This document shows, piece after piece, positions 2,189-54,179 of a stretch of DNA of 64,000 bases. The stretch covers positions 6,336,775-6,400,774 of the forward strand of contig OZ014418.1 of NCBI GenBank assembly GCA_963965975.1, given 5' to 3'. Made by a program: the position numbers and the translations under genes. The notes below the pieces were generated by a model, which was not told where the DNA came from, did not search any database, and was given only the letters and a program-made list of their open reading frames with translations. Position 1 is the first letter of the stretch, and each line of letters starts with the position of its first letter. Source of the DNA: Xestospongia bergquistia (Eukaryota > Porifera > Demospongiae > Haplosclerida > Petrosiidae).

Positions 2189-2390
2189 ATGATAGATATC
2201 AGTCAATGGAGAACTAGTATAGGCCTATGGTATCATAGTACACAAAGAACCAGCACAAATGGAGGATTATTATGGTCAGAAAGATCACTAGATGTGGATG
2301 ATGGCTACCTTGCCACATTATCATTGATATTGTTTATTTCATTACTCCTTATTTTAGCTGGTGATATTGAACTCAATCCTGGACCTACAG
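2189..2390 (+). other. 2A (ribosome-skipping) signal exon of gene A
   Basis: One exon encodes 67 residues beginning MIDISQWRTSIGLWYHS. It has a hydrophobic stretch of about 18 residues (around 42-57) and then GDIELNPGP, matching the 2A consensus D-V/I-E-x-N-P-G-P. In known 2A elements no peptide bond forms between the last Gly and Pro. Only Thr and part of a Glu codon separate the Pro from the phase-1 exon end, so the exon is a self-contained cassette. Confidence 0.85.
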
Positions 2391-5300
2391 GTATAATACT
2401 TGTATTAAAACATTACTATATTTTTATGTCCCTGCCATTTACTTCAATAGAATTGACATCTAGCAATGCCCTACAACTTCTCATTGATAATGACTTTAAT
2501 ATTAAAGATAAATGGATTGAATTAATTACTCTGCTATGTGTCTCATTAGAGGAGAGGGAAAGACTAGAGACAATGGCCAGCAGTGATCAAGATTTTCACC
2601 ATGCTTTAGAGGAGGGTTTACAATTGTGGATTACAAGCACCACTGACCCATCTTGGAAAGAACTCATTTCAGCTGTTGAGAACTGTGGGGATATGGATAT
2701 AGCTACTACAATGAGAAAACAACTAGAAACTAAAGAAGAAGGTATGTGTTCTATGTAATGTAAGGTAATTCTAGAACTTATATCATTTTAACAATAGCCC
2801 AACCTCTAAACCTCAAGTATCCTATAAGAATAACCACTTTGTTTACTTTGTATATGCATAGTCCAAACTTTCCTACAGGAGAGTACCTGGTAGGTATACA
2901 CCCATAATCACATACTTAGAGATCTTTGCTAGAATCTAGTGAACATTGTAGTTAATAATAACTTAATAACTTAGTCCTTAAAGGTAAGAGCAGTACCATC
3001 AAAATAATCTTAGGACAATTTTTACTATTATATTCTTGTTTTATTGTATAGATTATATTACAATCTCTGAACTGGACAATGTATTAGAACAGATAGGATC
3101 ACTAGAGTGGGAGGAGATAGATGAACTAGGTGAGACCATTCAGACCCAGGATACGAGAGACTCTATTTTTGCTGATGCCATAAATCCTGCAACAACTCTT
3201 AAGAAGTTACTAGAGAACACAATAACTAATTCTTGCCTCACCTCAACTGATCTCATTAGAAATCTTGCAATTATGAAGAAGTTCTCATCAGCTTATGCAA
3301 TATGGTGTCATCATTCGTCATCCTTGAAAGGTACAGTTATTATTTATCAATCAATTAATTGACTAAAATGCTCTAAAATAATATGATATTGAGTAAGCAG
3401 TCCTATGTACAGTATAAGATGAATCAGCCATGTTCCTAATAACACTACAAATGTTAATCTCCTCACATATATTCATATAATATAATATTTATTATATCTA
3501 TACAATGTAGATCAACCAGTTCTACTCCCACAGTTGTTAAGATATGTCAATGATGTGTCCATTGATGATCTACCCTTCCCTGGACTACAACTAGATATCT
3601 CTAAAGAGGAACTCTATAGAAGTGATTATCAGTCTCATCCTAAGATAGTTATCTGGGACTACTGGCTTAGAGAGAGTTATAAAACATCAGGAAAAACAGT
3701 ATATTGGAAGGAGGTGATCACTGCTGTTGATAATAGTGGTCACAAGGAACTTGCTATGAAGATGTGGAAATACAACATCTATTGTTATGTTTTATCACGT
3801 AAGAGACAGCAATTATATTTTCAAAGTTTACTAGTTAATTAATACATTGTAACTACCACACCTCTCATTAATAAAAGTTAAATTTAAACCTTCTACTAGC
3901 ATTTTGACAATTTATAATTTTTCAGCTGATTTTACAATTTTAAAACCCCAATGTTAGCTTTCACAACATTCATTGATTTTTTATACTATGAAACCATATA
4001 TCTTAGATAGTATAATATATGCTACATTATGTAGCATAATATTTTGAACAATATAACCATCTATAATGCAAGGAATTCCCACTGATTATTATAATATCAA
4101 AGTAAGACATTAGCAATGTTTTTGTTTTGACAGACTTACCACTATTGTAAAATAAAAGTGGTTTGTTTGAGGTCACAGCAAATCCAAAATCAAAACAGAG
4201 AAGAAGTTTTTGGAAACACCTGTGACTGAATTATAATTGTTAGCTCACACAAATCACTATCTGATTACATATATCATGTGATTGAACACATTTTATGTAA
4301 TAATGTGTTAACAAATCAACTTATTATTTACAGGATCATTATGCACCATACCTTATAACCTCATTGACTGTGAATACATTCGTTATTGTAAGTTATGTTT
4401 GTCTATGTATTATGTTACCAAACACATATAAATCACACAGAAAATATATAAAATCAACTTTTCATGGATAGTTAAGCTTTTTTACTTTTTGTATAAGTAA
4501 ATATCTTCAAAAGAAATGATAATAATTGTTGACTGTGTGTTTAATTATTGAAAGTCAAGAATTTTCATATTTTGGGTTGCTCATGGACTGATTATGTTCA
4601 TGACACCAATTCCTATAACAATTTTATATTTGCATCCTATACTTTTTTGTAAGACACTGACTTCACAAAAAGCACTGATTAGAGATTCAAAGGTCTATGA
4701 TTGGTAGCAATGTCAGTAGATGATTATAGCTATATAATGCAAGAAATGTAGTCTGAAGCAAGCAAGAAGCTTCTAGCATTATCAGTCACACCCATTGTTG
4801 TAACATTCATAGTTAAACTTAATAAATTTCATTGGTTGATATAAAGATGTGGTTTAATTTCATTTATTGATCTCTAAAGTTGTATACAACAATATATTGA
4901 AATTGTGAAAGTGAACATATACATATAGTTCAAAATGATTATAGGATCATCTGATATGTTCATGCCACAATGCTTTATGGTAGTTGCATGTGGTCTTATG
5001 TATATGATAGGTAATATTTATGATAGCCATAACACATTATACCAGTCCATGACCTTACTTCATTATTTCACACTATAGGTAAGTATACATATAAAAAACC
5101 TATACTTGATGACTTACTTGTTGAGTTAAGTAATATCAATATAGACTTTTACAACAATATATTGAAATTGTGAAAGTGAACATATACATATAGTTCAAAA
5201 TGATTATAGGATCATCTGATATGTTCATGCATATGCCAGGCAATAAAATCATTATATTACAAGTAGTTTATGTATGTATATATTCAATTTGTGCATGTAA

Positions 5301-8300
5301 TGATGCTTCAAACTTTGTACACAATGCTTTATGGAGTTTTGGTCTTATGTATATGATAGCTATAATATTTACGACAGCTATATATAATACATTATACCAG
5401 TAAAGTCCATGACCTTACTTCATTATTTCACACTATAGGTAAGTCTACATATAAAAAACCTATACTTGAAGACTTACTCGTTCAGTTAAATAATATCAAT
5501 ATAGATATTTTCCTGCTGGGTGTGGGATTGAAAGTACCAGTTGATGTGCTTAATCAGATTAAACAAGAATGTCAAGGGCACCATGGTACGAAGTATAAGC
5601 TAAAGGTGTGTGAGTACTGGCTAAAATGTTGTCCTGAGGACACCTGGGAAGAGGTGATTGTTACTCTAATGAGAACTGGATATATTAAAAATATCAGAGA
5701 ATCTATATGGAATCTAAGAATTTACCAACATGAAAGTAAGAATTAAGTTGATATTTCAATACATATATAGCCTTTATTCAAAGACATGAAAGAATATTTA
5801 ACCCTACACTAACTGTGTTTAGTCATCAGGTGAATTCCTCAAAAGGTATTGGATGTTTGGTATAACTCCTAGAGATCAAAACTCCATATTCACCTTAATT
5901 AATTGTAGTACTAGTAAATGGTTAATGATTACAAGCCTATACCACTTAGTACTACATAAATATAATTCATATATTCATTAGATGAATAAAAGGCATCATG
6001 GGATAAGCATGAACAAGGGAAGGATCACCCCCAATACATATATTAATAGAGCTGCTCATGAACTGTACCCATGTTTGTCTTCTTTGCTCTCTTTGTAGCC
6101 ATTTATACTGCTAAACTCTTTCATCTGTCTCTCTTGACTATACATATTTGTTATAAATGTACAAATAGAATAAATTACATATGGCTAGTTTGTCTTACAA
6201 ATGGGATATATGTACTATAAAAGAATATATCAAACAAATAAACAGAGTAGAAAACCCCAGGGTGGGCTTGCTCATGATATACTTGCCAATTATAGTCAAT
6301 CACCACTCCATTTGTATCTAAGCAAGCCAATGAAAATTTTTGATTAACATTTTATCACTCCTTTCTTTTTTATCACTTTCATCCAATATAATAATAGACA
6401 CTATTGTCATATCTATATTAATTCACTATCTATTATATAATTAAGTGTCATTATTTAATTTATAGTGGGTGAGCTAATGATTGAAGATATGATGTTCCTA
6501 CTTCCATCTAACCTGGATATATACTTACTGGGTACTCTTTTCAAAGTACCATTATCAGTATTAGACAAAATTGATGTCAAAGATATGGAGAAGAGTCGTT
6601 TAGAATTCTTTAAACATCTCTTATCTACTAATCCTTCACTTACTTGGGCAGTATTTACAGATATACTCATTAAGATGAAAAGAGCAGATATTATTTTAAT
6701 ACTGAAGAATAAATATGGCATTACAGTGGATAATATCTCTTCTCAAGGTATTTAGAATTTATTGTTACTTTTTAGTAAGCATATTCCATTAATGATATTA
6801 TAATGATAATTGTTATGTACTATTTATTCATTTCAGATTTATTCTATTGTTGTATATGACTTTTAAGAGTAACAATTGAAATTAATCCGGATAAAGTAAC
6901 CAACTAAGTACTCTGAACTGATTGGAGCATAAACGCTTGTAGCATCTACAAGTTAATCCATTGCATATAGCGATAACATCATGTACCATCAAAGTAATCT
7001 CAGGACAATTTGTACAATTATAATCTTGTTTATTAATGAACATGTCAATCATAAATTAATCATTCATACAATAGTCCTATAATTTTTTGGACCACAAGCT
7101 AACTATATACATGGTTAATTTTTTTCATCATTTTATTGTATTGTTGTATGCAACAAACAAAGTGACAAAATGGCATTAAACCACATCTTTTAATTGCTGG
7201 TAAAGAAGATTATTTTATTTACTATACTGCAACCACTATGATAATAGGTGTGACTGATAATGATAGAAGATTCGTACTATATAGCATACATCTCTCAATA
7301 TTTTTAGCATTATGTATAGCTGTATGCTAATTTTTCAATCTTTTAGCTCTAGTCAATGTTTCATCTTAAAGTCAATATCTTCCAAAACAAATGATTTTTT
7401 CAATTATAATCTTGTTATTTATATAACACACATTGATCAGTCAGTATTATATATTGTATACTATTTATATTTTATAGGTTTGCAAGATTTAAATAATGAA
7501 GAATGGAGGATAGCAAGGAAGAAGCACCAACGTCAGTTTAAGCTATATGCAAAAATCAGAGATCAAGAAACTGGTAAGAGAGCTATGAGTTATTAATAAT
7601 TGTGTAGAAATAATGATATCTTTTATTTGTACATAATTTAAATAATTATTATAATTATATTAATAAACATTTAGGCATTTATGTGACTTTGAAGGCTATA
7701 TGTTGACTTGATTATCAAATAGCACGTTTCAATGCATGCAAGAAAGTTTAGAATTATTACAATCTCCCAGCTACCTATTATCTTTGTCAAACATTTCTGT
7801 AGCTATATTCAAGAATAGCAGTAGTAAACGTACTGCTTCCATAATAGTATGATGAGTACTTTTTTACTATCATAGCAATAAAATAACAGTAATTTTTTGT
7901 AGTTCATAGCAAGCATTTAGTGTTTTTCTTATTATAGAAGAATCACTAGTGGAAGAATTAAAAGCAAAGAAATGGAAAACATTAGAGCTTGAAGACAGTA
8001 AGAAATCTTATAATATATTATTTTCAGAACTATATATGTTCAAAAGCAGCCAGAGAAAAATATTAAGAGAAAGCATCATATCCCAAGATACTCACTTCAT
8101 CTTATTTCAATACTTCCCTTGTTTATATTTCCTCATGTTAAGCCAATTCTTTAGTATATTAAGTTAGAGAGTTACTTAGGTTTAGAGTAGAAATGCTCAA
8201 GAAAACATTTGATCAATATAGTTAGATGCCTCCATAAAGTTGATGCATATAATTGCCCAGGCAAACTATTGTACATTATGATAATGTACTTTCTTTTCAG

Positions 8301-8656
8301 ATGATGCTGATATTCTCAAGCTTAGACAAGCCATCAAGAAAGTCCTTATTAAACGATATGATCCGTTACGTGATTTAAGTAGAAAGCGTTTAGATGTATT
8401 AGCTAATGGAATGTATTCAACTGATCTTATTAGCACAGAAGTCCAAAAATCACCTTCATTTGAGGATATCATTAGTGAATTTATAGCAGCAATGGAATTC
8501 ATGGAAACACGTTCCAAACTAGAGGAGCATTGTGTCAAGTTCTTATCAGCCTTTGCTAAATTAGGAGGTGGTTTTACTATAGCTAGTGATACCCTTAAAA
8601 CAGATTGGATTGAAGTGGGTAGAGCTGAATGTGGACTAGAACTAAAACTTGACTGA
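2189..8656 (+). CDS. Gene A: 2A-signal, five death-domain-like modules, coiled coil, CARD-like protein
   Basis: Ten exons inferred: 2189-2390, 2451-2741, 3052-3330, 3511-3798, 4334-4387, 5439-5735, 6466-6747, 7478-7573, 7938-7997 and 8301-8656. All introns are phase 1 and GT-AG; the joined frame is 734 residues. Residues 1-67 form the N-terminal 2A module (hydrophobic LATLSLILFISLLLILAG, then GDIELNPGP). Death-domain-like helical modules follow at about 68-164, 165-257, 258-353, 372-470 and 471-564; several have the family pattern of a W in the fifth helix (DPSWKELISA, TVYWKEVITA, DTWEEVIVTL). Residues 565-616 are charged and coiled-coil-like; 617-734 form a terminal death-fold starting ADILKLRQAIKKVL. 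There is no ZU5 domain, unlike B-E. Skipping at the 2A site would release everything after NPG as a cytosolic protein starting with Pro (established 2A chemistry; not shown here). Start: ATG 2189 is shared with C and F; an in-frame ATG lies at 2093. F is its copy. Confidence 0.72.
5078..5145 (+). pseudogene. Truncated duplicate of a death-domain exon start in gene A
   Basis: After an acceptor (CACACTATAG), the first 68 bases of the exon found intact at 5439 are repeated. They break off at AATATAGACTTT and run into a second copy of the upstream intron (from about 5147). This is the footprint of a local tandem duplication of about 260 bases (4886-5145 against 5147-5510). The duplicate has no donor site and is probably not used. 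Confidence 0.6.
5140..5500 (+). repeat. Intron/exon patch nearly identical to gene D (24200-24560)
   Basis: By eye the roughly 350 bases from ACAACAATATATTG through the first part of the death-domain exon are the same as 24207-24560. This includes an intronic 67-codon open frame (5200-5403 and 24257-24460, starting MIIGSSDMFMHMP). Sequence on either side differs more. This fits recent gene conversion or unequal exchange between A and D. Confidence 0.65.
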
Positions 8657-9547
8657 CATCCTTAATTACTAGCAAAGTCTTATGTATAATTTGAGAGAAT
8701 ACAATTTGTCAAATTTAATCATGTCTTATCTAGATAGTGTGACATGATGATTCTACGTTGATAATGATTAATGTTAAGTGTTTTCTTTTAGTTATGATTT
8801 TGTTAATTAGTCACACCTTAACTGACATCCTTAATTATAAGCACCAGCAAGTATAATTTGAGAGAAGACAACATGGAGAGTGTAACATGATGATTCTGAA
8901 TTGATACAATATGAATTTATGGTACACCCAATTTAAACAGCAGGTGAAGAATTTTATGTAGACATTTTAATCTTTGGGATAAGTGTAGAAAATGTAGTTG
9001 TAGATGAACATGGGTGTTCAAGCTAGTTCCTCATTCCTGAGTTCCAAGTACATGCATGACACAATAAAGATGTTTTATAGTGTCCAATTAATTTATTATT
9101 AATTATAAGAATATGACATGGAATATAATAGGATTTGTAATAAATTATTATTTTAGCAGGAAAACATCCACATAATTATAGCACATCATCATTGGGTGAC
9201 TTGCAAATAAAATCTCAGTTTATTGACTTGCTGAATCTACAAAATGAATGAATGCCTTGTAAAAGTGTGTGAACTTATTAAAGTTAAGAAAGTGTATCCT
9301 GTTACTCAAACTAATTATGTTGAATGCTGCTGAAATTGCTATTATATATGTGCATGTTATATAGCAGCTGTTCTCTGGCAGCCTCTATCTTCAATGCAAT
9401 TCATTCTTTTGATTGGAACAAAATCCAATCTCTATTAGCATAGTATCTGGCCCTAGAACTAACTTTTGAATATTTTGTTAAATTTGAATAATGTATAAGT
9501 CTATCTATAATAATCAATGAATATTGAATACTGTTTCCTCGTGCAAC
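8657..9547. other. Intergenic region A-B
   Basis: No gene seen. A short tandem repetition occurs near 8645-8700 and 8815-8880 (CTGACATCCTTAATTA... then ATAATTTGAGAGAA). A possible polyadenylation signal AATAAA lies at 9063-9068, about 400 bases after the stop of gene A; this is weak evidence. The region recurs almost unchanged at 47825-48715. Confidence 0.45.
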
Positions 9548-9755
9548 ATGATAGATGTTTGTCAATGGAGGGCTAGTATAGGCCTATGGTATCATTGCCA
9601 GAATCCACAAGCAACTAGAAGAGATATATTAATAGGATCGCTATGGTCAGGAGATGAGAATGATGGTTATCTGACCTCGTTATCTCTGACATTGTTTATT
9701 TCATTACTCCTTATTGTAGCTGGCGATATTGAACTCAATCCTGGACCTGAAACAG
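9548..9755 (+). other. 2A signal exon of gene B
   Basis: Encodes MIDVCQWRASIGLWYHC at the start, the hydrophobic LTSLSLTLFISLLLIVAG, then GDIELNPGP, and ends in a phase-1 donor after Glu-Thr. The protein differs from that of A at many positions in the N-terminal half, but the hydrophobic and 2A parts are conserved, so selection seems to act there. Confidence 0.83.
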
Positions 9756-12084
9756 GTAAAATATGAGTAATATGACTCTATTCTATGCCATTAACTGTTA
9801 CTAGTTCAAGTAGTGTTAAGTGTTTATTTCGATTTGGTTTGTTTACTTTTATATCAATCTAAATAAAAATGTCAAATGTTAGATGGAAGTATAATTCAAA
9901 CTACTATACAACTGGTTATATTATTAGGAGAGAAACATTTTGATAAAATAGTTGAGAATAGATGCTATGAATAAAATTTAATTGACAATTACAAATCTCA
10001 AGGTATCATTATTAATTACATATTCATGTTAGGTGGGGCATAACCATTATTCCTTATCAATTGAAGAAATGAAATTCCATAGAATCAACTGTGTATACTT
10101 CACAGTTATTATTAGTTAGTATTGTCTTGTCTTTGTAGTACTTGTATTAGAAGATGTTCTGAAAGAAATTCAAGGAATTATTACATGGCCTCAACTTGGT
10201 CTAGTCCTTAACATTGAGAAGGAAATGATTGAACGAACAGCTCAGCTGTTTGGAGGAGATGAGGAAAGAGCTCTTCAGCATGTTGTGACCAACTGGTTGG
10301 ATAATGATCCTGATGCATCTTGGGAAAAGTTAGCAAAGGCTGTGATGAGGATACCAATGTTAAGACAAAAAGGAGCTCAACTTTATAGCAAATATGTGTC
10401 AAAAGGTTATATACAGTTTACAATAACTTAAATATTGTGATATATTATAACAAGAATGTTTCACATAGTACTTGTTATTTCATTTTTTTGCAATATAATA
10501 TATTTTTAGATCTCACAGCAGATGCTGTTTGTATAGAACTAGAAGATTTGGTACAGGACTGGTTCCAACTATGATACATGTTTCTTTGTAATTCTCAATG
10601 TGTTCGAGAAGCAGGAACAGGTGACTCCAATGAAGAAAAATGAAGGAATGTTATAGGATATTGGTTAAAATCTGATCCTATTGCCAGTTGGGAATTAGTT
10701 GCTAGAAGGATTGAAGATTGCTTTCCACAACATGAGGCATTAGCTGATGAAATACGAAAGAAGTATCTTCCTAAAGTTGACACTACACCATTAATAAGGC
10801 CACCAACACCAGGTAATGCTAATCATTTTAATAGAGTTTATTATCAATCTATTCTCCTTAAATGTTATAGAACCTGACACTGAGTTAACTGTAAAAACAG
10901 CTTTTATAGCAACTCAAGGTGTTGATGATTGGTATGCCCTGGGTTGTTTCCTCAATTTAAAACCGGAGGAACTTATAGATATTGAAGAAGAACACACTTG
11001 ACCTGACCAATGTCGTAATGCAGTCCTTCAATTATGGCTAGAGGAACATCCTGCAGAATGGGTAGATCTAGCTAATGCACTTCGCTGTATGCCACAACAT
11101 GTTGGAAAGTCAGAAACAATACGAACCAAATATTGTAAGTATTTTATAATTACTGTAACTGTTTATTACATTAACAACTTGTGATATAGGTATAAAAACA
11201 GTTTCAGAGGAATCAGATCATACTACAACTGACCCAGGTAAATAAAATAATGTAATAGAGCCTTTTATACAAACCATGTTATTTTTTGATTATAATATGT
11301 CTGTATTAATATGTTGTATTAAACTAGGAGAGTGACTATTTAATAATGATATAGTCAAGAGTTATTTTCCTATAATGTTTAATATTAAAACAAACAGTTT
11401 CTTTCTTAAATTTAGAAATACTTGAGAAGGTGACCCAATCTATACAGACAGAGCCAATGGAGTTATCAATAGATAAAAATGATATGTCAGTTCAGTTTGA
11501 CTATCTTATTCCAGTCAATGGTACTAATATTATTGTAATAAACCATCATTAACTGATTTTTTCAGATACTCTTCATGGTGTCCAAGTAGGAGGCAAGGAG
11601 TTATTTCTAATTCAAGGAGACTCTCCTCAATCTTTTAACTGGGATGGATATGGTCTAAGGATAAATGTTCCTGAAGGAACTGTATCTTCAACAGAGACCT
11701 GTGAGATAGCAGTTACAGCATTGATTGGTGGACAGTTTACATTTCCTAAAGGAAGTGAGCTAGTCAGTGTTGTATATGCTGTCTCTATTGCTAGTGAGAT
11801 CCAGCAGCCATTGACACTAGAAATACAACATTGTGTCTCTCTGAATACAAGTGAACAGTCTTCCTACATGAAATTTGCCAAAGCTAGTTTTGAACGATGT
11901 TCTCTGCCTTATCAGTTTCATTTGTTAGAAGAAGGAGAATTTCATCCTGATGACCGATATGGAAAGATATCTCTTACAGAATTCTCTTTTATTTGTGAAG
12001 TTTTTATTAATACTGCAGATTTAGAAATAACTAATTCTCCTGCTCCCAGTGAAAGTCATTCTAATGAGATGCCTTCTTCACCTA

Positions 12085-12205
12085 TTGATAATCAAAGTAG
12101 TACTGAAGTTACAAATATTGATACTGAAACTGAAATGCCAAACATTGATGATACTGAAACCGAATTGCCAAAGATTGATACTGAAACTGAAATGGAATGC
12201 ATACA
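12085..12205 (+). repeat. Acidic tandem repeat in the gene B linker (NIDTETEMP-like units)
   Basis: Three imperfect units of about 9-10 codons (NIDTETEMP, NIDDTETELP, KIDTETEME) lie between ZU5 and the UPA-like block. They look like a disordered spacer. The unit is absent from C, D and E, which have Ser/Thr-rich sequence at this place. Repeated identically in G (51261-51381). Confidence 0.7.
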
Positions 12206-14801: not shown

Positions 14802-15003
14802 ATGATAGATATTAGTCAATGCAGAGCTAGTATAGGCCTATGGTATCATAGTACACAAAGAACCAATACAGATGGAATATTACTATGGTCAGAAAGATCA
14901 AGAGATGTGGATGATGGCTACCTTGCCACATTATCTTTGATACTGTTTATTTCATTACTCCTTATATTAGCTGGTGATATTGAACTCAATCCTGGACCTA
15001 CAG
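14802..15003 (+). other. 2A signal exon of gene C
   Basis: Same 202-base length and phase as in A. It encodes the hydrophobic LATLSLILFISLLLILAG followed by GDIELNPGP. The ATG follows the sequence CTCGTGCAAC, also present before the ATG of B, G and H. Confidence 0.85.
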
Positions 15004-19783: not shown

Positions 19784-19989
19784 CTTATAGTAGCATCAAT
19801 AACTTGTACATACAACAGGACTATACAATATTGTTACTTAGTAGTAGCATTTTTGTTATATTGTATTTAAAATTCAATTGATAATAATTGCACTCAATTG
19901 GTAAATGGACACATACTGTAACAATTATCAAAAAAGTATGCACACTAATAATGATTATAAAGCTGTCTTAACAAGATATTCAACCTTAA

Positions 19990-36441: not shown

Positions 36442-36688
36442 TATGTTAAGCTTTTCAGTAGCTACTCAGTTTTACTATCTCAGTAATAAAATTCAACAAA
36501 ATAACTAATCATTTGTTTGTGATTCATTATTTAAGAGACATGTGTTCAGTACTATAGTGTTTTTTTCTTATTACAGAACAACAATCACTAAAGGAAGAAT
36601 TAAAAACAAAGGATATGAAAATTTTGGAGCTTGAAAACAGTAAAAAACAGATTATTTCTTATAACATATCATTTTTAAAACTATATAG

Positions 36689-41078: not shown

Positions 41079-41280
41079 ATGATAGATGTCAGTCAATGGA
41101 GAACTAGTATAGGTCTATGGTATCATAGTACACAAAGAACCAACACAGATGGAGGATTACTGTTGTTAGGAAGATCAGGGGATGTGGATGATGGCTACCT
41201 TGGCACATTATCTTTGATATTGTTTATTTCATTACTCCTTATTTTAGCTGGTGATATTGAACTTAATCCTGGACCTACAG
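41079..41280 (+). other. 2A signal exon of gene F
   Basis: Begins MIDVSQWRTSIGLWYHS, has the hydrophobic GTLSLILFISLLLILAG and then GDIELNPGP; 202 bases, phase 1. The upstream ATG frame of A (2093) is not in frame here because one base is missing. Confidence 0.85.
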
Positions 41281-44200
41281 GTTATAATATTTGTGTTAAC
41301 ACAATACTATATTTTATGTCTCTGCCATTTATTTTAATAGAATTGACATCTACCAATGCCGTACAATTTCTCATTGATAATGACTTTAATATTAAAGATA
41401 AATGGATTGAACTCATTACTCTGCTACGTGTCTCACTGGAGGAGAGGGAAAGACTACAGACAATGGCCAGCAGTGATCAAGATATTCACCATGTTTTAAA
41501 GGAAGGTTTACAATGGTGGATTACAAACACTACTGACCTCTCTTGGGAAGAACTAATCTCAGCTGTTGAGAATTGTGGGGATAAGAATATAGCTACTAAG
41601 ATGAGAGGACAGCTAGAAACTAAAGAAGGTACGAGTTCTATGTAATGCAAGGTAATTCTAGAGCTTATATCATTTTAACAATAGCCCAACCTCTAAACCT
41701 CAAACCCTAGAACTGAATTCTTGGAAGTATAGTAGAATAACCACTTTGTTTACTTTGTATATACATAATCCAAACTTTTCTACAGGAGAGTACCTGGTAG
41801 ATATACACCCATAACCACATGCTTAGAGATCTATGCTAGAATTAGTGAACATTGTAGTTAATAATAATTCGGTCCTTTACAGAAACAGCAATTTTACTAT
41901 TATATTCTTGTTTTATTGAATAGATTACATTACAAACTCTGAACTGGACAATGTATTAAAACAGATAGGACCACTAGAGTGGGAGGAGGTAGATGAACTG
42001 GGTGAGACCATTCAGACCCAGGATACAAGAGACTCTATTTTTGCTGATGCCACAGAACCTGCGACAACTCTTAGGAATTTACTAGAGAACACAATAGCTA
42101 ATTCTTGCCTCACCTCAACTGATCTAATTAGAAATCTTGCAATTATGAAGAAGTTCTTGTCAGCTTATGCAATATGGTGTCATCATTCATCTTCTTTGAA
42201 AGGTACAGTTATTATTAATCACTTAATTAACTAAAAGTAGTTAATAATATGTAATTGAGTAATCAGTCCTATATACAGTATAAGATGAATAAAAGTGTTA
42301 ATATCCTTGCATACATTGATATAACATTTTATTTATTATATCTATTCACATGATGTAGATCAACCAGTTCTACTACCACAGTTGTTAAGATATCTTGATG
42401 ATGTGTCCATTGATGATCTACCATTCCCTGGATTACAACTAGATATCTCTAAAGAGGAGCTCTATAGAAGTGATTATCAGTTATATCCTAATAGAACCAA
42501 GATAGTTATCTGGGACTACTGGCTTAGACAAAGTTGTGAAACGCCAGAAAAAACAGTATATTGGAAGGAGGTGATCACTGCTTTTGATAAAAGTGGTCAC
42601 AAGGAACTTGCTGTGAAGATGTGGAAATACAACATCTATTGTTATGTTTTATCAAGTAAGAGATTGTACAATACAACAATTATATTTTAAATGTTTACTA
42701 GTTGATTAATAAGATTGTAATCACCACACCTCTTATTAATGAAAATTTAATTTAAAGTTTCTACTAGTGTTCTGACAATTTATAATTTGTCAGCTAGTTT
42801 TACAATTTTAAAAATCAAATGTTTACATTCATAGCATTCATTGATTATAATGTCTTAGTACGACATTAACAATAATGCTTTTGTTTGATAGACTTACCAC
42901 TATTGTAAAATAAAAGTTATTTAGTGGTTTATTTGAGGACATAGCTTTACTAATTTCTTAAATCAAAACAGAGAAGAAATTTTTGGAAATGCTTAATAAA
43001 TACATACTATTACTGAATTATAATTATTACTATTATTAAATACTGAATTATAATTGTTAGCTCACACAAATCACTATCTGATTGCATTATGTCATGTGAT
43101 TGAAAACATTTTATGTAATAGTGTGTTAACAAATCAACTAACTATTTACAGGATCATTATGTACCATACCTGATGACCTCATTGACAGTGAATACATTCG
43201 TGATTGTAAGTTATGTCTTTCTATATATTATGTTACCAAACACACATAAATCACACAGAAAATATATAAAATCAACTTTTGATAGATAGTTAAGCTCTTT
43301 TACTTTTTTGTATAAATAAATATTTTCAAAAGAAATGATCATAATTGTTGACTTATTTTGTTCATATTTTGGGATAGCTAATGGACTGATTATGTTAATG
43401 ATACCAATTCCTATTTAATCAATTCCTATAACAATTTTATATTTGTATCCTGTAATTTTTTGCAAGATACTGACTTCACAAAAAACACTGACTAAAGATA
43501 CAAAAGTTATATGATTAGCAGCAGTGTCTGTAGATGATTATAGCTATATGCTAGAACTATAGCTATAAGCAAGAAGCTTGTAGCATTTTCAGTCACACCC
43601 ATTGTTTTAACATTAAACTTAAAAAAAATTTCATTGGTTGGTATTAGGATGTGGTTAATTTCATTTGTTGATCTCTAAAGTTGTATACAACAATATATTG
43701 AAATTGTGAAACTGAACATATACATATAGTTCAAAATAATATAAGATTATCTGACATGTTCATGCCAAACAGTAAAACATTATAGTAGTTTATATATGTA
43801 TATATTCATTTTGTGCATTAACGATGCTTTAAAATTTGTACACAATGCGTTATGGTAGCTTTGGTCTTATGTATATGATAGCTATAATATTTATAACAAC
43901 TATAATACATTATACCAGACCTTACTTCATTATTTCACACCATAGGTGATTCTACATACAAAAAACCTATACTTGATGACTTACTTGTTGAATTAAGTAA
44001 TATCGATATAGACTTTTTCCTGCTGGGTGTGGGATTGAAAGTACCAGTAGATGTACTTAATCAGATTGAACAAGAATGTGAAGGGCACCCTGGTACCAAG
44101 TATAAGCTAAAGGTGTGTGAGTACTGGCTAAAATGTTGTCCTGAGGATACCTGGGAAGAGGTGATTGTTACTCTAATGAGAACTGGATATATTAAAAAGA

Positions 44201-47200
44201 TCATAGAATCTACGCGGAATATAAGAAATTACCGACATGAAGGTAAGAATTAAGTTGATATTTCAATACATATATAGCCTTTATTCAAAGACATGAAAGA
44301 ATATTTAACCCTACACTAGCTGTGTTTAGTCATCAGGTGAATTCCTCAAAAGGTATTGGATGTTTGGTATAACCCCTAGAGATAAAAACTCCATATAAGT
44401 CACCTTAATTAATTGTAGTACTAGTAAATGGTTAATGATTACAAGCCCATACCACTAGTACCTTATAAATTTATTCATATATTCATTAGCTGAATGAAAG
44501 ACATCATGGGATCATAGGTGTATCTAGGTCTCTTAATAGTACTAGGGCTTATTAATTATTCATCATTATTATTTAGTAGTTATTAATAGTTATTAACAAT
44601 TTTAAACCTTTACTCAACCATGTACATGTACATTAACTTCTGGTATTGTGGCATATCACTACCTAAGCCTTGCGGACTCTCTAGATCAACACCATCACTA
44701 TCTGTATCTGTACAGTGCAAGAAAAGTAGAAAGAATAATTTCAAACTACTTTGTTATTAGATTCACACCTAACCATTTTGATCATTTAATCCTCTAATTT
44801 CTCTGTCAATTTCTTCATTGCTGTCATTTCCACTGTCATCTTCCTCACTCTCTGGAACATTGTATGCTTTTTTGATGGACCTACACCACTGCTGCTGCTA
44901 TTACTAGAAGTCCAAAAGTCTTTAAGAGTTTTTTTCATATTGGCACTCAGTCTGACTCAGATCACAGTTCAAAAAATGATCAAAAATCACTCAAAAGAAA
45001 CTAAGGCAAAACTCAGGTGCTATAATTACTAACTGTGAAGTCATACATATACATGTGTTAGTGGTTAATCTTCGTGTAAATAAACAAATTATGAATTTCA
45101 TTTGGTTAAAGCAATGAATTTATTTTTTGAAAAAATGTAATTAATTTTGGTCTGAGCAAGAGACAAAGCCCGTGCTGGCCTGGGTCTAAATACGCCTATG
45201 CATGGGATAAGCATAAGCAAGGGAAGGATCACCACAGTGCATATACTAATGAGCTACTCATGAACTAGCTATGTTTGTCTTCTTTGCTCTCTTTGTAGCC
45301 ATTTATGGTACTACACTCTTTCATCTGTCTCTCTTGACTATACATATTTGTTATAAATGTACAAATAGAATAAATTATATATGGCTAGCTTGTCTTATAA
45401 ATGGAATATATGTACTATAAAAATATCTCAAACAAATAAACAAAGTAGAAAACCCCAGGGTGAGCTTGCTCATGATATACTTGCCAATTATAGTCAATCA
45501 CCACTATACTTGTATCTAAGCAAGCCAATGAGAATTTTTGATTAACATTTATTTAGGAGGGGTAGTTATCACTCCCATTTTTTTAATCACTTTCATCCAA
45601 TATAATAGTAGACACTATTGTCATATCTGTATTAACACACTATCTATTATATAATTAAGTGTCATTATTTAATTTATAGTGGGTGAGCTAACAATTGAAG
45701 ATATGATGTTCCTACTTCCATCTAACCTGGATATCTACTTACTGGGTATTCTTTTCAAAGTACCATTCTCAGTGTTAGACAAAATTGATGTCAAAGATAT
45801 GGAGAAGAGTCGTCTAGAATTCTTTGTACATCTCTTATCTACTAATCCTTCACTTACTTGGACAGCATTTGGAGATATACTCATTAAGATGAAAAGAGCA
45901 GATATTGTTTTAATACTGAAGAATAAATATGGCATTACAGTGGATAATATCTCTTCTCAAAGTAATCGTTACTGATATAATGAAATTGTTATGTACTATT
46001 TGTCCATTTCACATTTCCAATTTATTCTATTGTTGTATATGTAACAGTTCAAATTAATTCACATAAAGTAACCAACTAAGTATTCTGAACTGATTGAAGT
46101 TTGTAACATCTAAAAGTTAATCCATTGCATATAGCGATAAAATCATGTACCATCAAAATAATCTCAGGACAATTTGTACAATTATAATCTTGTTTATTAA
46201 TTAACATGTCAATCATAAATTAATCGTTCATATAATAGTCCTATAATTTTTTGGACCACAAGTTAACTATATACATTGATATTTTTTTCATCATTTTATT
46301 GTATTGTTGTATGCAACAAGCAAAGTGACAAAATGGCATTAAACCACATCTTTTAATTGCTGACAAAGAAAATTATTTCATTTACCATACTGCAAACACT
46401 ATGATAATGGTGTGACTAATAATGATAGAAGCTTCTTACTATATAGCTTGCATCTCTCAATATTTCTAACATTATGTAGCTATATGCTAGTTTTGCAATC
46501 TTTTGGCTCTAGTCAAAATTTCACTCTAAAGTCAATATCTGCTGAAACAATTAAAGGATGATTTTTTTCAATTATAATCTTATTATTTATATAATACACA
46601 TTGGTCAGTCAGTAGTATATATTGTACACTATTTATATTTTATAGGTTTGCAAGATTTAAATGATGAAAAATGCAAGATAGCAAGGAAGAAGTACCAACG
46701 TCAGTTTAAGCTATATGCAAAAATCAGAGATCAAGAAACTGGTAAGAGAGCTATGAGTTATTAATAATTGTGTAGAAATAATGATATCCTTTATTTGTAC
46801 ATAATTTAAATAATTATTATAATTATATTAATAAACATTTAGGCATTTATGTGGCTTTGAAGGCTATATGTTGACTTGATTATCAAATAACACTTTTCAA
46901 TGCATGCAAGAAAGTTTAGAATTATTACAATCTCCCAGCTACCTATTATCTTTGTCAAACTTTTCTGTAGCTATATTCAAGAATAGCAGTAGTAAACGTA
47001 CTGCTTCCATAATATTATGATGAGTACTTTTTTACTATCATAGCAATAAAATAACAGTAATCTTTTGTAGTTCATAGCAAGCATTCAGTGTTTTTCTTAT
47101 TATAGAAGAATCACTAGTGGAAGAATTAAAAACAAAGAAATGGAAAACATTAGAGTTTGAAGACAGTAAGAAATCTTATAATATATTATTTTCAGAACTA

Positions 47201-47824
47201 TATATGTTTAAAAGCAGCCAGAGAAAAATATTAAGAGAAAGCATCATATCCCAAGATACTCACTTCATCTTATTTCAATACTTCCCTTGTTTATATTTCC
47301 TCATGTTAAGCCAATTCTTTAGTATATTAAGTTAGAGAGTTACTTAGGTTTAGAGTAGAAATGCTCAAGAAAACATTTGATCAATATAGTTAGATGCCTC
47401 CATAAAGTTGATGCATATAATTGCCCAGGCAAACTATTGTACATTATGATAATGTACTTTCTTTTCAGATGATGCTGATATTCTCAAGCTTAGACAAGCC
47501 ATCAAGAAAGTCCTTATTAAACGATATGATCCGTTACGTGATTTAAGTAGAAAGCGTTTAGATGTATTAGCTAATGGAATGTATTCAACTGATCTTATTA
47601 GCACAGAAGTCCAAAAATCACCTTCATTTGAGGATATCATTAGTGAATTTATAGCAGCAATGGAATTCATGGAAACACGCTCCAAACTAGAGGAGCATTG
47701 TGTCAAGTTCTTATCAGCCTTTGCTAAATTAGGAGGTGGTTTTACTATAGCTAGTGATACCCTTAAAACAGATTGGATTGAAGTGGGTAGAGCTGAATGT
47801 GGACTAGAACTAAAACTTGACTGA
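41079..47824 (+). CDS. Gene F: copy of gene A (2A-signal, five death domains, coiled coil, CARD-like)
   Basis: Ten exons: 41079-41280, 41341-41628, 41924-42202, 42359-42655, 43152-43205, 43946-44242, 45680-45961, 46646-46741, 47106-47165 and 47469-47824. The joined frame is 736 residues with no stops. Architecture is as in A: 2A module 1-67, then death-domain-like modules at about 68-163, 164-256, 257-355, 374-472 and 473-566, coiled coil 567-618, and terminal death-fold 619-736. The third exon (41924-42202) is fully open but lacks an ATG. The donor after exon 7 is CAAA|GTAATC, whereas A has CAAG|GTATTT. The intron before exon 7 carries an insertion with 8-base target duplication (44513-45200) that A lacks. 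The last two exons are practically identical to A; the first seven are more diverged. Confidence 0.73.
44513..45200. mobile_element. Nonautonomous DNA transposon (hAT-like) in an intron of gene F
   Basis: The insert is flanked by direct repeats CATGGGAT at 44505-44512 and 45201-45208. The single empty site is seen in gene A at 5997-6004. Ends are imperfect inverted repeats: CATAGGTGTATCTAGG at the left, and CATAGGCGTATTTAGA as the reverse complement of the right. Length is 688 bases with no sizeable open frame. An 8-base target duplication is typical of hAT elements (also of a few other superfamilies). It inserted after the duplication that separated A and F. Confidence 0.82.
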
Positions 47825-48715
47825 CATCCTTAATTACTAGCAAAGTCTTATGTATAATTTGAGAGAATACAATTTGTCAAATTTAATCATGTCTTATCTA
47901 GATAGTGTGACATGATGATTCTACGTTGATAATGATTAATGTTAAGTGTTTTCTTTTAGTTATGATTTTGTTAATTAGTCACACCTTAACTGACATCCTT
48001 AATTATAAGCACCAGCAAGTATAATTTGAGAGAAGACAACATGGAGAGTGTAACATGATGATTCTGAATTGATACAATATGAATTTATGGTACACCCAAT
48101 TTAAACAGCAGGTGAAGAATTTTATGTAGACATTTTAATCTTTGGGATAAGTGTAGAAAATGTAGTTGTAGATGAACATGGGTGTTCAAGCTAGTTCCTC
48201 ATTCCTGAGTTCCAAGTGCATGCATGACACAATAAAGATGTTTTATAGTGTCCAATTAATTTATTATTAATTATAAGAATATGACATGGAATATAATAGG
48301 ATTTGTAATAAATTATTATTTTAGCAGGAAAACATCCACATAATTATAGCACATCATCATTGGGTGACTTGCAAATAAAATCTCAGTTTATTGACTTGCT
48401 GAATCTACAAAATGAATGAATGCCTTGTAAAAGTGTGTGAACTTATTAAAGTTAAGAAAGTGTATCCTGTTACTCAAACTAATTATGTTGAATGCTGCTG
48501 AAATTGCTATTATATATGTGCATGTTATATAGCAGCTGTTCTCTGGCAGCCTCTATCTTCAATGCAATTCATTCTTTTGATTGGAACAAAATCCAATCTC
48601 TATTAGCATAGTATCTGGCCCTAGAACTAACTTTTGAATATTTTGTTAAATTTGAATAATGTATAAGTCTATCTATAATAATCAATGAATATTGAATACT
48701 GTTTCCTCGTGCAAC
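47825..48715. other. Intergenic region F-G
   Basis: Near-identical copy of 8657-9547; no gene seen. A possible AATAAA lies at 48231-48236. Confidence 0.45.
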
Positions 48716-48923
48716 ATGATAGATGTTTGTCAATGGAGGGCTAGTATAGGCCTATGGTATCATTGCCAGAATCCACAAGCAACTAGAAGAGATATATTAA
48801 TAGGATCGCTATGGTCAGGAGATGAGAATGATGGTTATCTGACCTCGTTATCTCTGACATTGTTTATTTCATTACTCCTTATTGTAGCTGGCGATATTGA
48901 ACTCAATCCTGGACCTGAAACAG
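48716..48923 (+). other. 2A signal exon of gene G
   Basis: Same sequence as in gene B as far as I can see: MIDVCQWRASIGLWYHC start, hydrophobic segment, GDIELNPGP, phase-1 donor. Confidence 0.83.
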
Positions 48924-51900
48924 GTAAAATATGAGTAATATGACTCTATTCTATGCCATTAACTGTTACTAGTTCAAGTAGTGTTAAGTGTTTATTTCGA
49001 TTTGGTTTGTTTACTTTTATATCAATCTAAATAAAAATGTCAAATGTTAGATGGAAGTATAATTCAAACTACTATACAACTGGTTATATTATTAGGAGAG
49101 AAACATTTTGATAAAATAGTTGAGAATAGATGCTATGAATAAAATTTAATTGACAATTACAAATCTCAAGGTATCATTATTAATTACATATTCATGTTAG
49201 GTGGGGCATAACCATTATTCCTTATCAATTGAAGAAATGAAATTCTATAGAATCAAGGAAATATACTATGTATATTTACAGTTATTATTAGTTAGTATTG
49301 TCTTGTCTTTGTAGTACTTGTATTAGAAGATGTTCTGAAAGAAATTCAAGGAATTATTACATGGCCTCAACTTGGTCTAGTCCTTAACATTGAGAAGGAA
49401 ATGATTGAACGAACAGCTCAGCTGTTTGGAGGAGATGAGGAAAGAGCTCTTCAGCATGTTGTGACCAACTGGTTGGATAATGATCCTGATGCATCTTGGG
49501 AAAAGTTAGCAAAGGCTGTGATGAGGATACCAATGTTAAGACAAAAAGGAGCTCAACTTTATAGCAAATATGTGTCAAAAGGTTATATACAGTTTACAAT
49601 AACTTAAATATTGTGATATATTATAACAAGAATGTTTCACATAGTACTTGTTATTTCATTTTTTTGCAATATAATATATTTTTAGATCTCACAGCAGATG
49701 CTGTTTGTATAGAACTAGAAGATTTGGTACAGGACTGGTTCCAACTATGATACATGTTTCTTTGTAATTCTCAATGTGTTCGAGAAGCAGGAACAGGTGA
49801 CTCCAATGAAGAAAAATGAAGGAATGTTATAGGATATTGGTTAAAATCTGATCCTATTGCCAGTTGGGAATTAGTTGCTAGAAGGATTGAAGATTGCTTT
49901 CCACAACATGAGGCATTAGCTGATGAAATACGAAAGAAGTATCTTCCTAAAGTTGACACTACACCATTAATAAGGCCACCAACACCAGGTAATGCTAATC
50001 ATTTTAATAGAGTTTATTATCAATCTATTCTCCTTAAATGTTATAGAACCTGACACTGAGTTAACTGTAAAAACAGCTTTTATAGCAACTCAAGGTGTTG
50101 ATGATTGGTATGCCCTGGGTTGTTTCCTCAATTTAAAACCGGAGGAACTTATAGATATTGAAGAAGAACACACTTGACCTGACCAATGTCGTAATGCAGT
50201 CCTTCAATTATGGCTAGAGGAACATCCTGCAGAATGGGTAGATCTAGCTAATGCACTTCGCTGTATGCCACAACATGTTGGAAAGTCAGAAACAATACGA
50301 ACCAAATATTGTAAGTATTTTATAATTACTGTAACTGTTTATTACATTAACAACTTGTGATATAGGTATAAAAACAGTTTCAGAGGAATCAGATCATACT
50401 ACAACTGACCCAGGTAAATAAAATAATGTAATAGAGCCTTTTATACAAACCATGTTATTTTTTGATTATAATATGTCTGTATTAATATGTTGTATTAAAC
50501 TAGGAGAGTGACTATTTAATAATGATATAGTCAAGAGTTATTTTCCTATAATGTTTAATATTAAAACAAACAGTTTCTTTCTTAAATTTAGAAATACTTG
50601 AGAAGGTGACCCAATCTATACAGACAGAGCCAATGGAGTTATCAATAGATAAAAATGATATGTCAGTTCAGTTTGACTATCTTATTCCAGTCAATGGTAC
50701 TAATATTATTGTAATAAACCATCATTAACTGATTTTTTCAGATACTCTTCATGGTGTCCAAGTAGGAGGCAAGGAGTTATTTCTAATTCAAGGAGACTCT
50801 CCTCAATCTTTTAACTGGGATGGATATGGTCTAAGGATAAATGTTCCTGAAGGAACTGTATCTTCAACAGAGACCTGTGAGATAGCAGTTACAGCATTGA
50901 TTGGTGGACAGTTTACATTTCCTAAAGGAAGTGAGCTAGTCAGTGTTGTATATGCTGTCTCTATTGCTAGTGAGATCCAGCAGCCATTGACACTAGAAAT
51001 ACAACATTGTGTCTCTCTGAATACAAGTGAACAGTCTTCCTACATGAAATTTGCCAAAGCTAGTTTTGAACGATGTTCTCTGCCTTATCAGTTTCATTTG
51101 TTAGAAGAAGGAGAATTTCATCCTGATGACCGATATGGAAAGATATCTCTTACAGAATTCTCTTTTATTTGTGAAGTTTTTATTAATACTGCAGATTTAG
51201 AAATAACTAATTCTCCTGCTCCCAGTGAAAGTCATTCTAATGAGATGCCTTCTTCACCTATTGATAATCAAAGTAGTACTGAAGTTACAAATATTGATAC
51301 TGAAACTGAAATGCCAAACATTGATGATACTGAAACCGAATTGCCAAAGATTGATACTGAAACTGAAATGGAATGCATACAACCAGCAGTTATTCCTAAT
51401 CAGGACTCTTCCATAGCAAGTGTGGATACTAGTGGTGAGTGGTGCTTTGTTTATATCATTAAATTTTGTCTTCATTAGGGGCTGCTCAATCCTATTTTGC
51501 CCAAGGATTCTATAAAGAAGATGAAGGAAGTAATAAATCTGAGATGGAAATGTTAGTTGTCAAAGACCTTGATTTCCTCAAGCAGGTATAATGAATATAT
51601 AGCATTGTATTATATACTGTACTGTTATTAGTGTGTAGACACTCAACAAGATCTTCGTCAAGCCAAAAGTGGGCCACGAATTTATTTTCATTTCAAGAAA
51701 GAAGTTAACAGTGGTGGTTATATAGAACTAGTATTTAATGAGACTTTTAAAGCAGGATGGTATATACTACCTCAGTTATCACCATGTCGAGTAAGTACCT
51801 ATAAAGGATTTATGTCTAGTTAGTAGTTACTATTTATAGATTTTGAAGAAAGATGTAGATGATTTTGGTAACAAAGAAAATGTCAAACCACCTTCATGTA

Positions 51901-52643
51901 TAGTGGTAATTTATGCCAATGAGAACAGTGCTGACTTGGCTCCACTACACTATCCTGTACAACTCAATGGTATTGAGCCAACTGATATAAAATTCTTTAT
52001 TACAAGACTTCCCAAGCAAATAGGTAGTCATGTATTGTTACTTAATACTCTGTATTGATTGTTCTCTTTTCTTGGAAGTTCAAATTACAAGGAAACGATC
52101 CATCCAATCTTACCAATCCTTAGAGGAAATGCCCTTTGCAAAAAGACACCATTTATCATCTTCAAGTAATAAGTAGTGTCAGATAAACTAACAAATTTAT
52201 TTTTGTATATAGGTAGTGATATTCTGTCACCTACACATACTAGTATAAGTAGTCCTGGAGGTATACTATGACTATATTTATGTAGTAATTTATCTTTATG
52301 CATAGCTCTTCTTTCACCTATACAATATGATGACAGAGTCAAGAAAATCTTTCGTACTCACTTTGCTGAGCTATCTCGCCTTGTATCTGTCTCTGCTAAC
52401 AGATCTTCTATAGCTACTGAATTATATAGTGCTTTTCTTATATCAGAGACATGTTATGATGAGGTTCAAGATAATAGCAATAAAACAGACAATGAGAGAG
52501 GCTCGTCTTTAATGAGAGCAATAAAGTCTTCTATTCATAGCAAGCCTAACTTGTTTGAGAAGCTTATTGTTGTCCTTGAGAATGTTGAAGCATTTAAAGA
52601 ATTTGCTGAAAAATTAAAAGATGAATTTTACAGTACTTATTAA
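48716..52643 (+). pseudogene. Gene G: near-identical copy of gene B with the same three TGA codons
   Basis: Exons by offset from B: 48716-48923, 49315-49581, 49686-49988, 50047-50310, 50366-50413, 50592-50696, 50742-51434, 51479-51585, 51632-51790, 51840-52023, 52079-52165, 52213-52260 and 52306-52643. The domain order is that of B. In-frame TGA codons are at 49748-49750, 49817-49819 and 50175-50177, exactly those of B, so they predate the duplication. Only a few base differences from B are visible, for example the Thr-to-Ala change in NENSADLAPL (about 51930). In the first intron GAAATTCTATAGAATCAAGG differs from B and adds 8 bases. As in B, skipping exons 3 and 4 would leave an open 747-residue frame. 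Confidence 0.68.
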
Positions 52644-53977
52644 TACACATACCTTGATCATTTGTATTGTTTATGATTTTGTTGCACCTTCTAATTATAA
52701 TATAACTATAATATTTTACATTAGAATTAAACTAGCACTGCATTATAACCCAACAAGACATGATAACCAATTCAAGAAGGAGTTCTTATTAACTTGAGAC
52801 GATAGTTTAAATGTTAATGTAATAAGAGATGTGCCCATTTCAGATATTGGAGTTAACATGTAAAGTGGTAAAGGAATGGTTTAAGATTTGTCACTGATGT
52901 CTTGACTGATTTACTAGAAGACATATCTTCAGTAGTACCATCTTCTGTACCCTAATAACAAAATAAGATGTCATTATATAAAATGGACATAATCATAACT
53001 GTATAATGATGTACTTCATGTTTTTTGTAGCTTTTTTTAGAATCATCATTTGATCTGGTCCTAACAGCAGCTTTTATAGCTTCAGCATTCTTAGCATAAA
53101 ATTGTTTTGATTGAGCAGTGTGATGAGTAGGATTATTAGCATATCTCTCTGGGCTCCTTTAATTTTTTATAGTTTGTCTTGAGAGCATAGATTGTTCTCT
53201 GTTTTGAAATATCTCTTCTCGTTTTTCTAATTATCTATGACGTTTGAGAACTCTTTTCTTCTGGATTTCAGTAGGTATGTTGAAATAGGCGTGGCTAAGT
53301 AATGCAGCCATCGATACATTCTAATAGAGCCCCACCCCAGAAAATCTCGCCCCAAAAAAGAAGCACACTTCACTCTACAGGCGGTAAGTGTAATCTTATC
53401 GGTAATTATGAAGTAAAATACAAATACAAATACAAATACACAAAATGACACCAAATTCCTCCCCTAGTCTCACCCACAGTCATCCTTCTCTTCCACACCC
53501 ACTAATAGAAGAGAACCTGTTTATGGATACTAAAATAACATATTAGTAATGATGTCATTATTACATCATCAATAGGACCCTAGATTTAATATTCCCAACT
53601 TTATACACACACATATAATAGATAGTTATATATATAATGTATGTTTCATCAATATTAATGTACTTATATATTTTTAGCTATTGTGGAAATAGTAAATATG
53701 ATTCATTTATTAACTGGTCAATAATTATGTTGATATGGGTGTGATCCAGATCATGATTTTATATGAAAGAGATATAATAGAGAGTCTGAGCTGTTTTGAT
53801 TTGAAAGGAGGAAAAACTAGAACATCATGAGAACTAGACAACCTACAATCATCAATAATAACAAGAGGTCTGAGCAGGTTATTTATTGACTTGTTTATAA
53901 TGATTAATAGTTATTAATATTAACTATTAAATAATCCTAATAATAATTAACAATGAATATTATACTTCTCGTGCAAC
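52644..53977. other. Intergenic region G-H
   Basis: Near-identical copy of 13468-14801, including the 5' part of the antisense remnant at about 52826-53236 and the AAATAC microsatellite near 53416-53438. No array exon is seen. Confidence 0.5.
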
Positions 53978-54179
53978 ATGATAGATATTAGTCAATGCAG
54001 AGCTAGTATAGGCCTATGGTATCATAGTACACAAAGAACCAATACAGATGGAATATTACTATGGTCAGAAAGATCAAGAGATGTGGATGATGGCTACCTT
54101 GCCACATTATCTTTGATACTGTTTATTTCATTACTCCTTATATTAGCTGGTGATATTGAACTCAATCCTGGACCTACAG
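53978..54179 (+). other. 2A signal exon of gene H
   Basis: Same as the C exon at 14802-15003: MIDISQCRASIGLWYHS start, hydrophobic run and GDIELNPGP, ending phase 1. Confidence 0.85.

Follow-up and report, generated by a model that had tools for sequence, protein, structure and literature searches.

A 64-kb stretch of contig OZ014418.1 from the sponge Xestospongia bergquistia (GenBank assembly GCA_963965975.1, positions 6,336,775 to 6,400,774 of the forward strand; 31% G+C), referred to here as the window, looks like a tandem array of genes that contain introns and lie on the + strand. Six of these genes, designated A to F, begin with a first coding exon in which a hydrophobic run leads directly into a 2A (StopGo) core. 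The exons that follow encode predicted death-fold proteins, with a ZU5-like domain in B, C, E, and F, and paralogues of these genes lie in the same array (Table 1).

The tetrapeptide NPGP was found six times when the window was translated in all six frames, each time within the sequence GDIELNPGP behind a hydrophobic run. In 100 simulated windows generated with a first-order Markov model, the mean count of NPGP was 0.11 per window, and D(V/I)ExNPGP did not occur. The 2A core (D/G/C/N)(V/I)ExNPGP was present in frame in all six leader exons, and each exon starts with an ATG, placing the leader at the extreme N terminus. The leader is 66 to 67 amino acids long and consists of a conserved N-terminal tail, a hydrophobic run of approximately 18 residues, and GDIELNPGP, after which the exon ends at a phase-1 donor. 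In A, C, D, and F it reads MID(I/V)SQ(W/C)R(T/A)SIGLWYH, a variable linker, DDGYL(A/G)TLSLILFISLLLILA, and GDIELNPGP-T, with the donor (ACAG/GT) one codon and one nucleotide past NPGP. The leaders of B and E end in GDIELNPGP-ET, carry four changes in the hydrophobic run and a linker with small indels and numerous changes, and have their donor (GAAACAG/GT) two codons and one nucleotide past NPGP. Scored with a simple matrix, the donor of D (GTTATA) was the lowest of the six, at -0.3 compared with 0.5 to 2.1 for the other leaders. A preliminary description of the locus had reported these six exons, with a phase-1 donor shortly after the 2A sequence, and was borne out on both counts; its six leader genes are all present but represent only four independent sequences, because the leaders of B and E and those of C and F are identical after a duplication of 16.5 kb.

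In A and D the open reading frame (ORF) is unbroken from the ATG through the 2A sequence and a 60-bp intron into the first death-domain exon, and because the frame stays open through this intron, the fusion of leader and domain is independent of splice prediction in these two genes. In C and its copy F, the leader reaches the first death-domain exon only if a 58-bp intron is removed. The spliced models of A, C, D, and F contain no internal stop. The leader exon runs from phase 0 to phase 1, and internal exons are of phase 1-1 in all eight cases in A, all eight in D, and 9 of 12 in both C and F, the remaining internal exons of C and F all lying downstream of ZU5. Exons were retained on the basis of consistent phase, agreement between paralogues, and an open frame; predicted micro-exons were dropped by judgement, and earlier models of B and E had dodged stops using such pieces. 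The codon table of the gene predictor was trained on ORFs from the window itself, and the gene boundaries drawn by the unconstrained predictor, which fused the window into one chain of 155 exons, were disregarded.

Table 1. Positions of the 2A leader exons and other features in the 64-kb window (position 1 is the first base of the window)
Feature	Position	Strand	Remarks
Gene A 2A leader exon (ATG to phase-1 donor)	2189-2390	+	GDIELNPGP at 2360-2386
Gene B 2A leader exon	9548-9755	+	GDIELNPGP at 9722-9748
Gene C 2A leader exon	14802-15003	+	GDIELNPGP at 14973-14999
Gene D 2A leader exon	41079-41280	+	GDIELNPGP at 41250-41276; donor score lowest of the six
Gene E 2A leader exon	48716-48923	+	Protein identical to B; within duplicated block
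Gene F 2A leader exon	53978-54179	+	Identical to C; within duplicated block
Gene A model	2189-8656	+	10 exons, 734 amino acids, uninterrupted, lacks ZU5
Gene A first death-domain exon	2451-2741	+	Phase 1-1; open from ATG; fold modelled in aligned C homologue
Gene B first death-domain exon	10139-10405	+	Joined to leader; tblastn against first death domain (DD1), E = 6.6e-4
Gene B death-domain exons 2 and 3	10519-10812, 10871-11134	+	Two and one in-frame stops, respectively
Gene B ZU5 exon	11566-12258	+	
Gene C model	14802-19783	+	14 exons, 990 amino acids, no internal stop
Gene C first death domain	15062-15352	+	Modelled, mean pLDDT 87
Gene C further death-domain exons	16048-16314, 16428-16721, 16780-17049	+	
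Gene C ZU5 exon	17917-18507	+	F-C after ISLSH (possible autoproteolysis-type site)
Gene D model	41079-47824	+	10 exons, 736 amino acids, A-like, no internal stop
Gene F model	53978-58951	+	14 exons, 989 amino acids, no internal stop
ZU5 exons with F-C or F-S (alignment)	17917-18507, 28991-29620, 38031-38642, 11566-12258, 57088-57672		
Large duplication, first copy	6799-23264	+	Second copy 45976-62435; 97.2% identical over 16.5 kb
Paralogue G	22435-31012	+	Contains a death domain, coiled-coil-like exons, and ZU5; 2A exon not detected; first exon not located
Paralogue H	32321-39920	+	No 2A exon found; stop in exon 32320-32598; first exon not located

The first domain behind the leader models as a death domain. 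Using the sequence of C (96 amino acids, alignment of five sequences), six helices were predicted with a mean predicted local distance difference test score (pLDDT) of 87.3, and a Foldseek comparison of this model with the PDB was led by the death domains of FADD, PIDD, TNFR1, and ankyrin, with template modelling (TM) scores of up to 0.77 and a top probability of approximately 1. Against a viral structure library, no match exceeded a probability of 0.30 among the best 50 of 99. When PDB sequences were searched with the death domain, the top E value belonged to an engineered repeat protein, the pieces of which each failed alone, and PIDD death domains followed at an E value of approximately 0.5. 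The Pfam Death profile matched C exon 16780-17049 (E = 9e-6) and one exon each in paralogues G (E = 1e-9) and H (E = 2.5e-8). Profile comparisons, from which A exon 3052-3330 was left out, connected C exon 16428-16721 to the Pfam-positive exon (E = 8e-10); for the group of A exon 3511-3798, the E value was 1.6e-5 against the first domain and 0.67 against the Pfam-positive exon. The first domain itself matched the Pfam-positive exon weakly (E = 0.0017, probability 15), as did the groups of exons 5439-5735 (E = 0.023) and 6466-6747 (E = 0.015); the ZU5 profile, used as a control, gave an E value of 0.61. The profile of the terminal domain gave 0.32 in the same comparison; PDB sequences offered no credible match to this domain, and it is left unassigned in both C and A. 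At an E value of 1 or below, no Pfam family was matched by the whole A model, and neither the A nor the C model contained NACHT, LRR, or TRADD-N; with neither NACHT nor LRR in these models, membership of the NLR family was rejected.

Pfam ZU5 was matched in all five exons scanned, with a best E value of 0.0009, the first member falling below threshold at 19.6 bits against a cut-off of 21. The structure model of ZU5 had a pLDDT of 34 and was unusable, no ZU5 match was obtained when the region was compared with PDB sequences, and no relevant Pfam or PDB sequence match to UPA was found after ZU5, the PDB search with ZU5 and UPA together returning one irrelevant row. The 2A sequences had been described as preceding multi-death-domain and ZU5 proteins without NACHT; the leader is indeed in frame with death-domain exons and no NACHT was found in the models of A and C, but several of the death-domain exons are weakly matched or unconfirmed, and the ZU5 assignment stands at scores below threshold.

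At the end of the ZU5 region, Phe is followed by Cys (genes C, F, and G) or by Ser (H and B) in five of five aligned exons, E not being aligned. PIDD and CARD8 cleave themselves at HF/S and SF/S, respectively, and Ser, Thr, or Cys can generally be the nucleophile (PMC3210808). The Phe-Ser/Cys pair is, as a hint at the level of the motif only, a candidate autoproteolysis site. The pair recalls PIDD1 and the FIIND proteins (ZU5-UPA-death fold), as does the arrangement in B, C, E, and F, where another C-terminal region comes after a ZU5-like domain; unlike those proteins, the death domains here precede ZU5, and no LRR was found in A or C. A second hydrophobic stretch is present in C and F (approximately 18330-18395 and 57490-57565) at and immediately after the Phe-Cys site, reading FCLLGII..SFFCPIGMLL in C, and is possibly a membrane segment.

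Constraint is strong on the hydrophobic-2A half of the leader and weak on the linker. Between B and A, alignment codons 42 to 68 (hydrophobic run and 2A) contain six synonymous and four nonsynonymous differences, giving a synonymous divergence (dS) of 0.35 and a nonsynonymous divergence (dN) of 0.07; the corresponding values are dN 0.54 and dS 0.42 for the linker and dN 0.08 and dS 0.30 for residues 1 to 16, codons with gaps being omitted. With site counts rounded, the synonymous share in codons 42 to 68 had a binomial p value of 0.026, and nonsynonymous change in the linker compared with the hydrophobic-2A part had a Fisher p value of 1.1e-4. Across the six pairs of A, B, C, and D, dN in residues 1 to 16 ranged from 0.03 to 0.08. 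DNA identity between B and A was 31% in the 120 bases upstream, 90% in codons 1 to 16, 60% in the linker, 83% in codons 38 to 57, 96% in the core, and 53% in the 70 bases past it. Because identity runs high-low-high inside one exon, selection acting on two parts of the leader would fit the pattern better than a recent conversion of the whole exon.

The duplicated block of 16.5 kb holds two 2A-led genes, E being a copy of B and F a copy of C; the repeat would reflect either a recent duplication or an assembly or haplotype artefact. Among the distinct leaders, protein identity to A was 91% for C and 88% for D, and that of B to the others was 63 to 68% in pairwise comparisons. In the 60 bases 5' of the ATG, A and D are 88% identical, and C is 59% identical to B, 44% to A, and 37% to D. 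The leader and first death-domain exon of C are 93% and 92% identical to those of A, and its next two death-domain exons are 93% and 95% identical to those of B. As the leader and first domain of C resemble A while its upstream bases and next two exons resemble B, C looks like a mosaic in which an A-type leader and first-domain unit sits inside a B-type gene. Two types of C-terminal domain exon were seen (13132-13464, 30680-31009, 19472-19780, and 39603-39917), with G ending like B and H like C, which suggests that 3' ends were also shuffled among family members. An apparent decayed copy of a C-type terminal exon lies between genes C and G, at 21179-21500.

On hydropathy and insertion-energy scales, the best 19-residue windows of the four distinct leaders had Kyte-Doolittle values of 2.06 to 2.44, and a simple summed insertion energy was favourable at the best window in A, C, and D. 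The run begins approximately 39 to 40 residues in, behind an N-terminal tail with a net charge of -2, and since both of its flanks are equal at -3, charge does not decide topology. Acidic flanks and an N-terminal tail of 39 to 40 residues are atypical of a cleavable signal peptide. The segment had been called signal-like; given the start of the run and the acidic flanks on both sides, a classical secreted signal peptide was rejected as the sole reading. From these features, a membrane-anchored form facing the cytosol appears at least as plausible as a secreted form, and anchoring with cytosolic death domains would make more sense than secretion for proteins of this kind.

The core is preceded by the hexapeptide LLILAG or LLIVAG, with Gly before Asp at position 12 (D12). 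By eye, the hexapeptide and D12 resemble the Leu-rich motifs 2 and 6 of a recent StopGo/2A catalogue, and the D-I-E-x-N-P-G-P core, the Gly before Asp, and the Leu-rich hexapeptide are shared with 2A sequences carrying an LLLLSG-like motif (Li et al. 2026, PMC12846837). Activity in reticulocyte lysate was seen for motif 6 among others, and the four upstream motifs assayed there skipped at about 93% to almost 100% (PMC12846837). That catalogue consists of virus sequences, whereas the motif here lies in the first exon of a host gene.

The nearest known system is found in the sea urchin Strongylocentrotus purpuratus, in which an N-terminal 2A leader of an NLR skipped in vitro at approximately 80%, by the authors' qualitative estimate, and a skipping-dead leader placed the reporter mainly at the Golgi (Roulston et al. 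2016, PMC4981915). Sea urchin NLRs with 2A-like sequences numbered 85 of 241 in a first count, and in a later NCBI set 14 of 87 had a 26-amino-acid N-terminal 2A, 12 of these 14 being predicted as signal peptides (PMC4981915). Both systems combine a hydrophobic N-terminal leader ending in a 2A core with a death-domain protein of immune type, and in both the leader is found in only some members of a large gene family. They differ in leader length (26 amino acids, compared with 66 to 67 here, where a conserved tail precedes a run starting at about residue 40) and in the protein led, which in the sea urchin contains NACHT and LRR and here is a ZU5 or multi-death-domain protein, with NACHT not found in A and C. 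Activity was measured for the sea urchin leader and is predicted for the present one. 2A leaders on NLRs had been taken as established in both sea urchins and sponges; the sea urchin half agrees with the published work (PMC4981915), and no sponge 2A leader was described in the titles and abstract openings among the literature matches listed, including those for NPGP or 2A-like sequences with Amphimedon. A large expansion of proteins with one to three N-terminal death-like domains has been reported in Amphimedon (PMC8195603), but the TRADD-N found in the death-domain expansions there had no match in A or C, and 2A is not mentioned in the passages of that report consulted. The ZU5 alignment was searched against viral contigs together with the A leader, and against GTDB bacteria and archaea together with the C leader; neither search yielded a confirmed locus, in collections that contain no animal genomes and whose null result says nothing on distribution. 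The device itself is thus known from sea urchin NLRs; new here are the type of protein, the long conserved N-terminal tail, and the exchangeable phase-1 cap exon.

We consider it somewhat more probable than not, at roughly 55%, that the six first coding exons of this tandem death-fold family act through partial 2A skipping to give membrane and cytosolic pools of protein from one mRNA. If the genes are expressed and spliced as predicted, the conserved tail of 39 to 40 residues, a membrane-grade hydrophobic helix, and the StopGo core would together form the leader. The ribosome would usually skip the Gly-Pro bond, releasing a leader peptide of approximately 65 amino acids and a soluble cytosolic death-fold protein beginning with Pro; where skipping failed, the leader would be retained and the protein sent to, or anchored at, the endoplasmic reticulum (ER) or another secretory membrane, so that skipping efficiency would set the ratio of two pools per mRNA. 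Since the hexapeptide resembles an active Leu-rich class and the sea urchin leader skips at approximately 80%, skipping by the leader is judged very likely, and partial dual localisation probable on balance. As the leader exon has a phase-1 end that suits the 1-1 phase of the death-domain exons, it could be placed before any death-domain exon, and it has apparently been exchanged between family members. A more elaborate version, which we hold only tentatively and think rather doubtful, would make this phase-1 StopGo cap exon a membrane switch, in which the unskipped product is a type III membrane protein with cytosolic death domains, the skipped product is soluble, the leader is tail anchored, and ZU5 members cut themselves at Phe-Ser/Cys; a ZU5-bearing ORF would then yield three polypeptides without an external protease. 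If active, the leader would extend the use of 2A in host genes from sea urchin NLRs to a different death-fold family from a sponge. Dual localisation under 2A control might then be an ancient or repeatedly evolved means by which marine invertebrates tune immune and cell-death adaptors. Array members with and without the leader provide natural comparisons.

Several observations weigh against partial skipping to two pools. B and E contain in-frame stops in their second (two stops) and third (one stop) death-domain exons, and the choice of exons in all models was partly a matter of judgement. Within the 9 codons of the 2A core, no pair of leaders shows more than two silent differences, making a selection test on the core by itself weak, and gene conversion may contribute. 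The best 19-residue window of B takes in part of the acidic 2A core and has an unfavourable summed insertion energy of +2.9. Position 15 is Leu here, whereas motifs 2 and 6 favour Ser (PMC12846837). The Foldseek E values for the first-domain model are weak (best 0.067; no matches at E ≤ 0.001), and no 2A exon was detected in paralogues G, H, and I (approximately 22.4, 32.3, and 61.6 kb), the first exons of which were not located. In B and E the two stop-bearing neighbours (10519-11134 and 49695-50310) are both of phase 1-1, and the other exons checked are open; these genes would be either dead or skipping the two exons.

The alternative given most weight, although still improbable, is that the motif is a complete separator, in which skipping occurs essentially always and the point is the released, tail-anchored-like micro-protein of approximately 65 amino acids, with no second form of the death-fold protein. 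The conservation of residues 1 to 16 speaks for it, as 2A should not need them, and so do the high efficiencies of the four assayed upstream motifs (PMC12846837); yet the closest measured analogue skips at only approximately 80% (PMC4981915), and the released leader has no known function. Less probable again, and in our view unlikely, is a reading in which the hydrophobic run belongs to the 2A sequence as its exit-tunnel part, has no membrane function, and the motif merely trims the N-terminal tail off the death-fold protein. It would account for the features atypical of a cleavable signal peptide, and Leu-rich segments upstream of the 2A core are described as mattering for skipping. A run that served the exit tunnel and nothing else would also count against partial skipping to two pools. 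However, at approximately 18 residues the run exceeds the six-residue motif, its hydrophobicity would by a simple sum suffice for a membrane helix in A, C, and D, and it is largely kept outside the hexapeptide, B differing from A at 3 of 13 alignment positions (42 to 54).

That the 2A exon was left behind by the ORF of a non-LTR (long terminal repeat) retrotransposon and goes unused by the death-fold genes is very unlikely. Such elements are known to carry 2A-like sequences (PMC4981915, PMC11512398), and a coiled-coil exon of H gave a sub-threshold match to the Pfam L1 RNA-binding domain (E = 0.045; 14.5 versus 22.4 bits). In the gene models the leader is, however, in frame and phase with the adjoining death-domain exons, with an ORF open into the domain in A and D, constraint was kept between diverged copies, and no reverse transcriptase or endonuclease Pfam match was found among the subset of ORFs and exons scanned; the transposon-remnant reading was rejected. 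Least probable of all is that the cluster is largely decaying, with the leader sitting in pseudogenes without present function: the stops in exons of B, E, and H and the recent duplication speak for decay, but uninterrupted models of 734 to 990 amino acids were obtained for A, C, D, and F, four of the six genes with a leader.

Across the window, no Rfam family reached its gathering score and the tRNA search returned none. Antisense ORFs rich in Ser, Thr, and Ala, each starting with ATG, lie a short way 5' of genes A and D (1067-1450 and 40161-40538, both on the - strand), and a Pfam scan gave no convincing match to either. Tandem repeats of 18 bp were found in predicted introns of H (36188-36422, 13 copies) and G (27392-27503, 5 copies).

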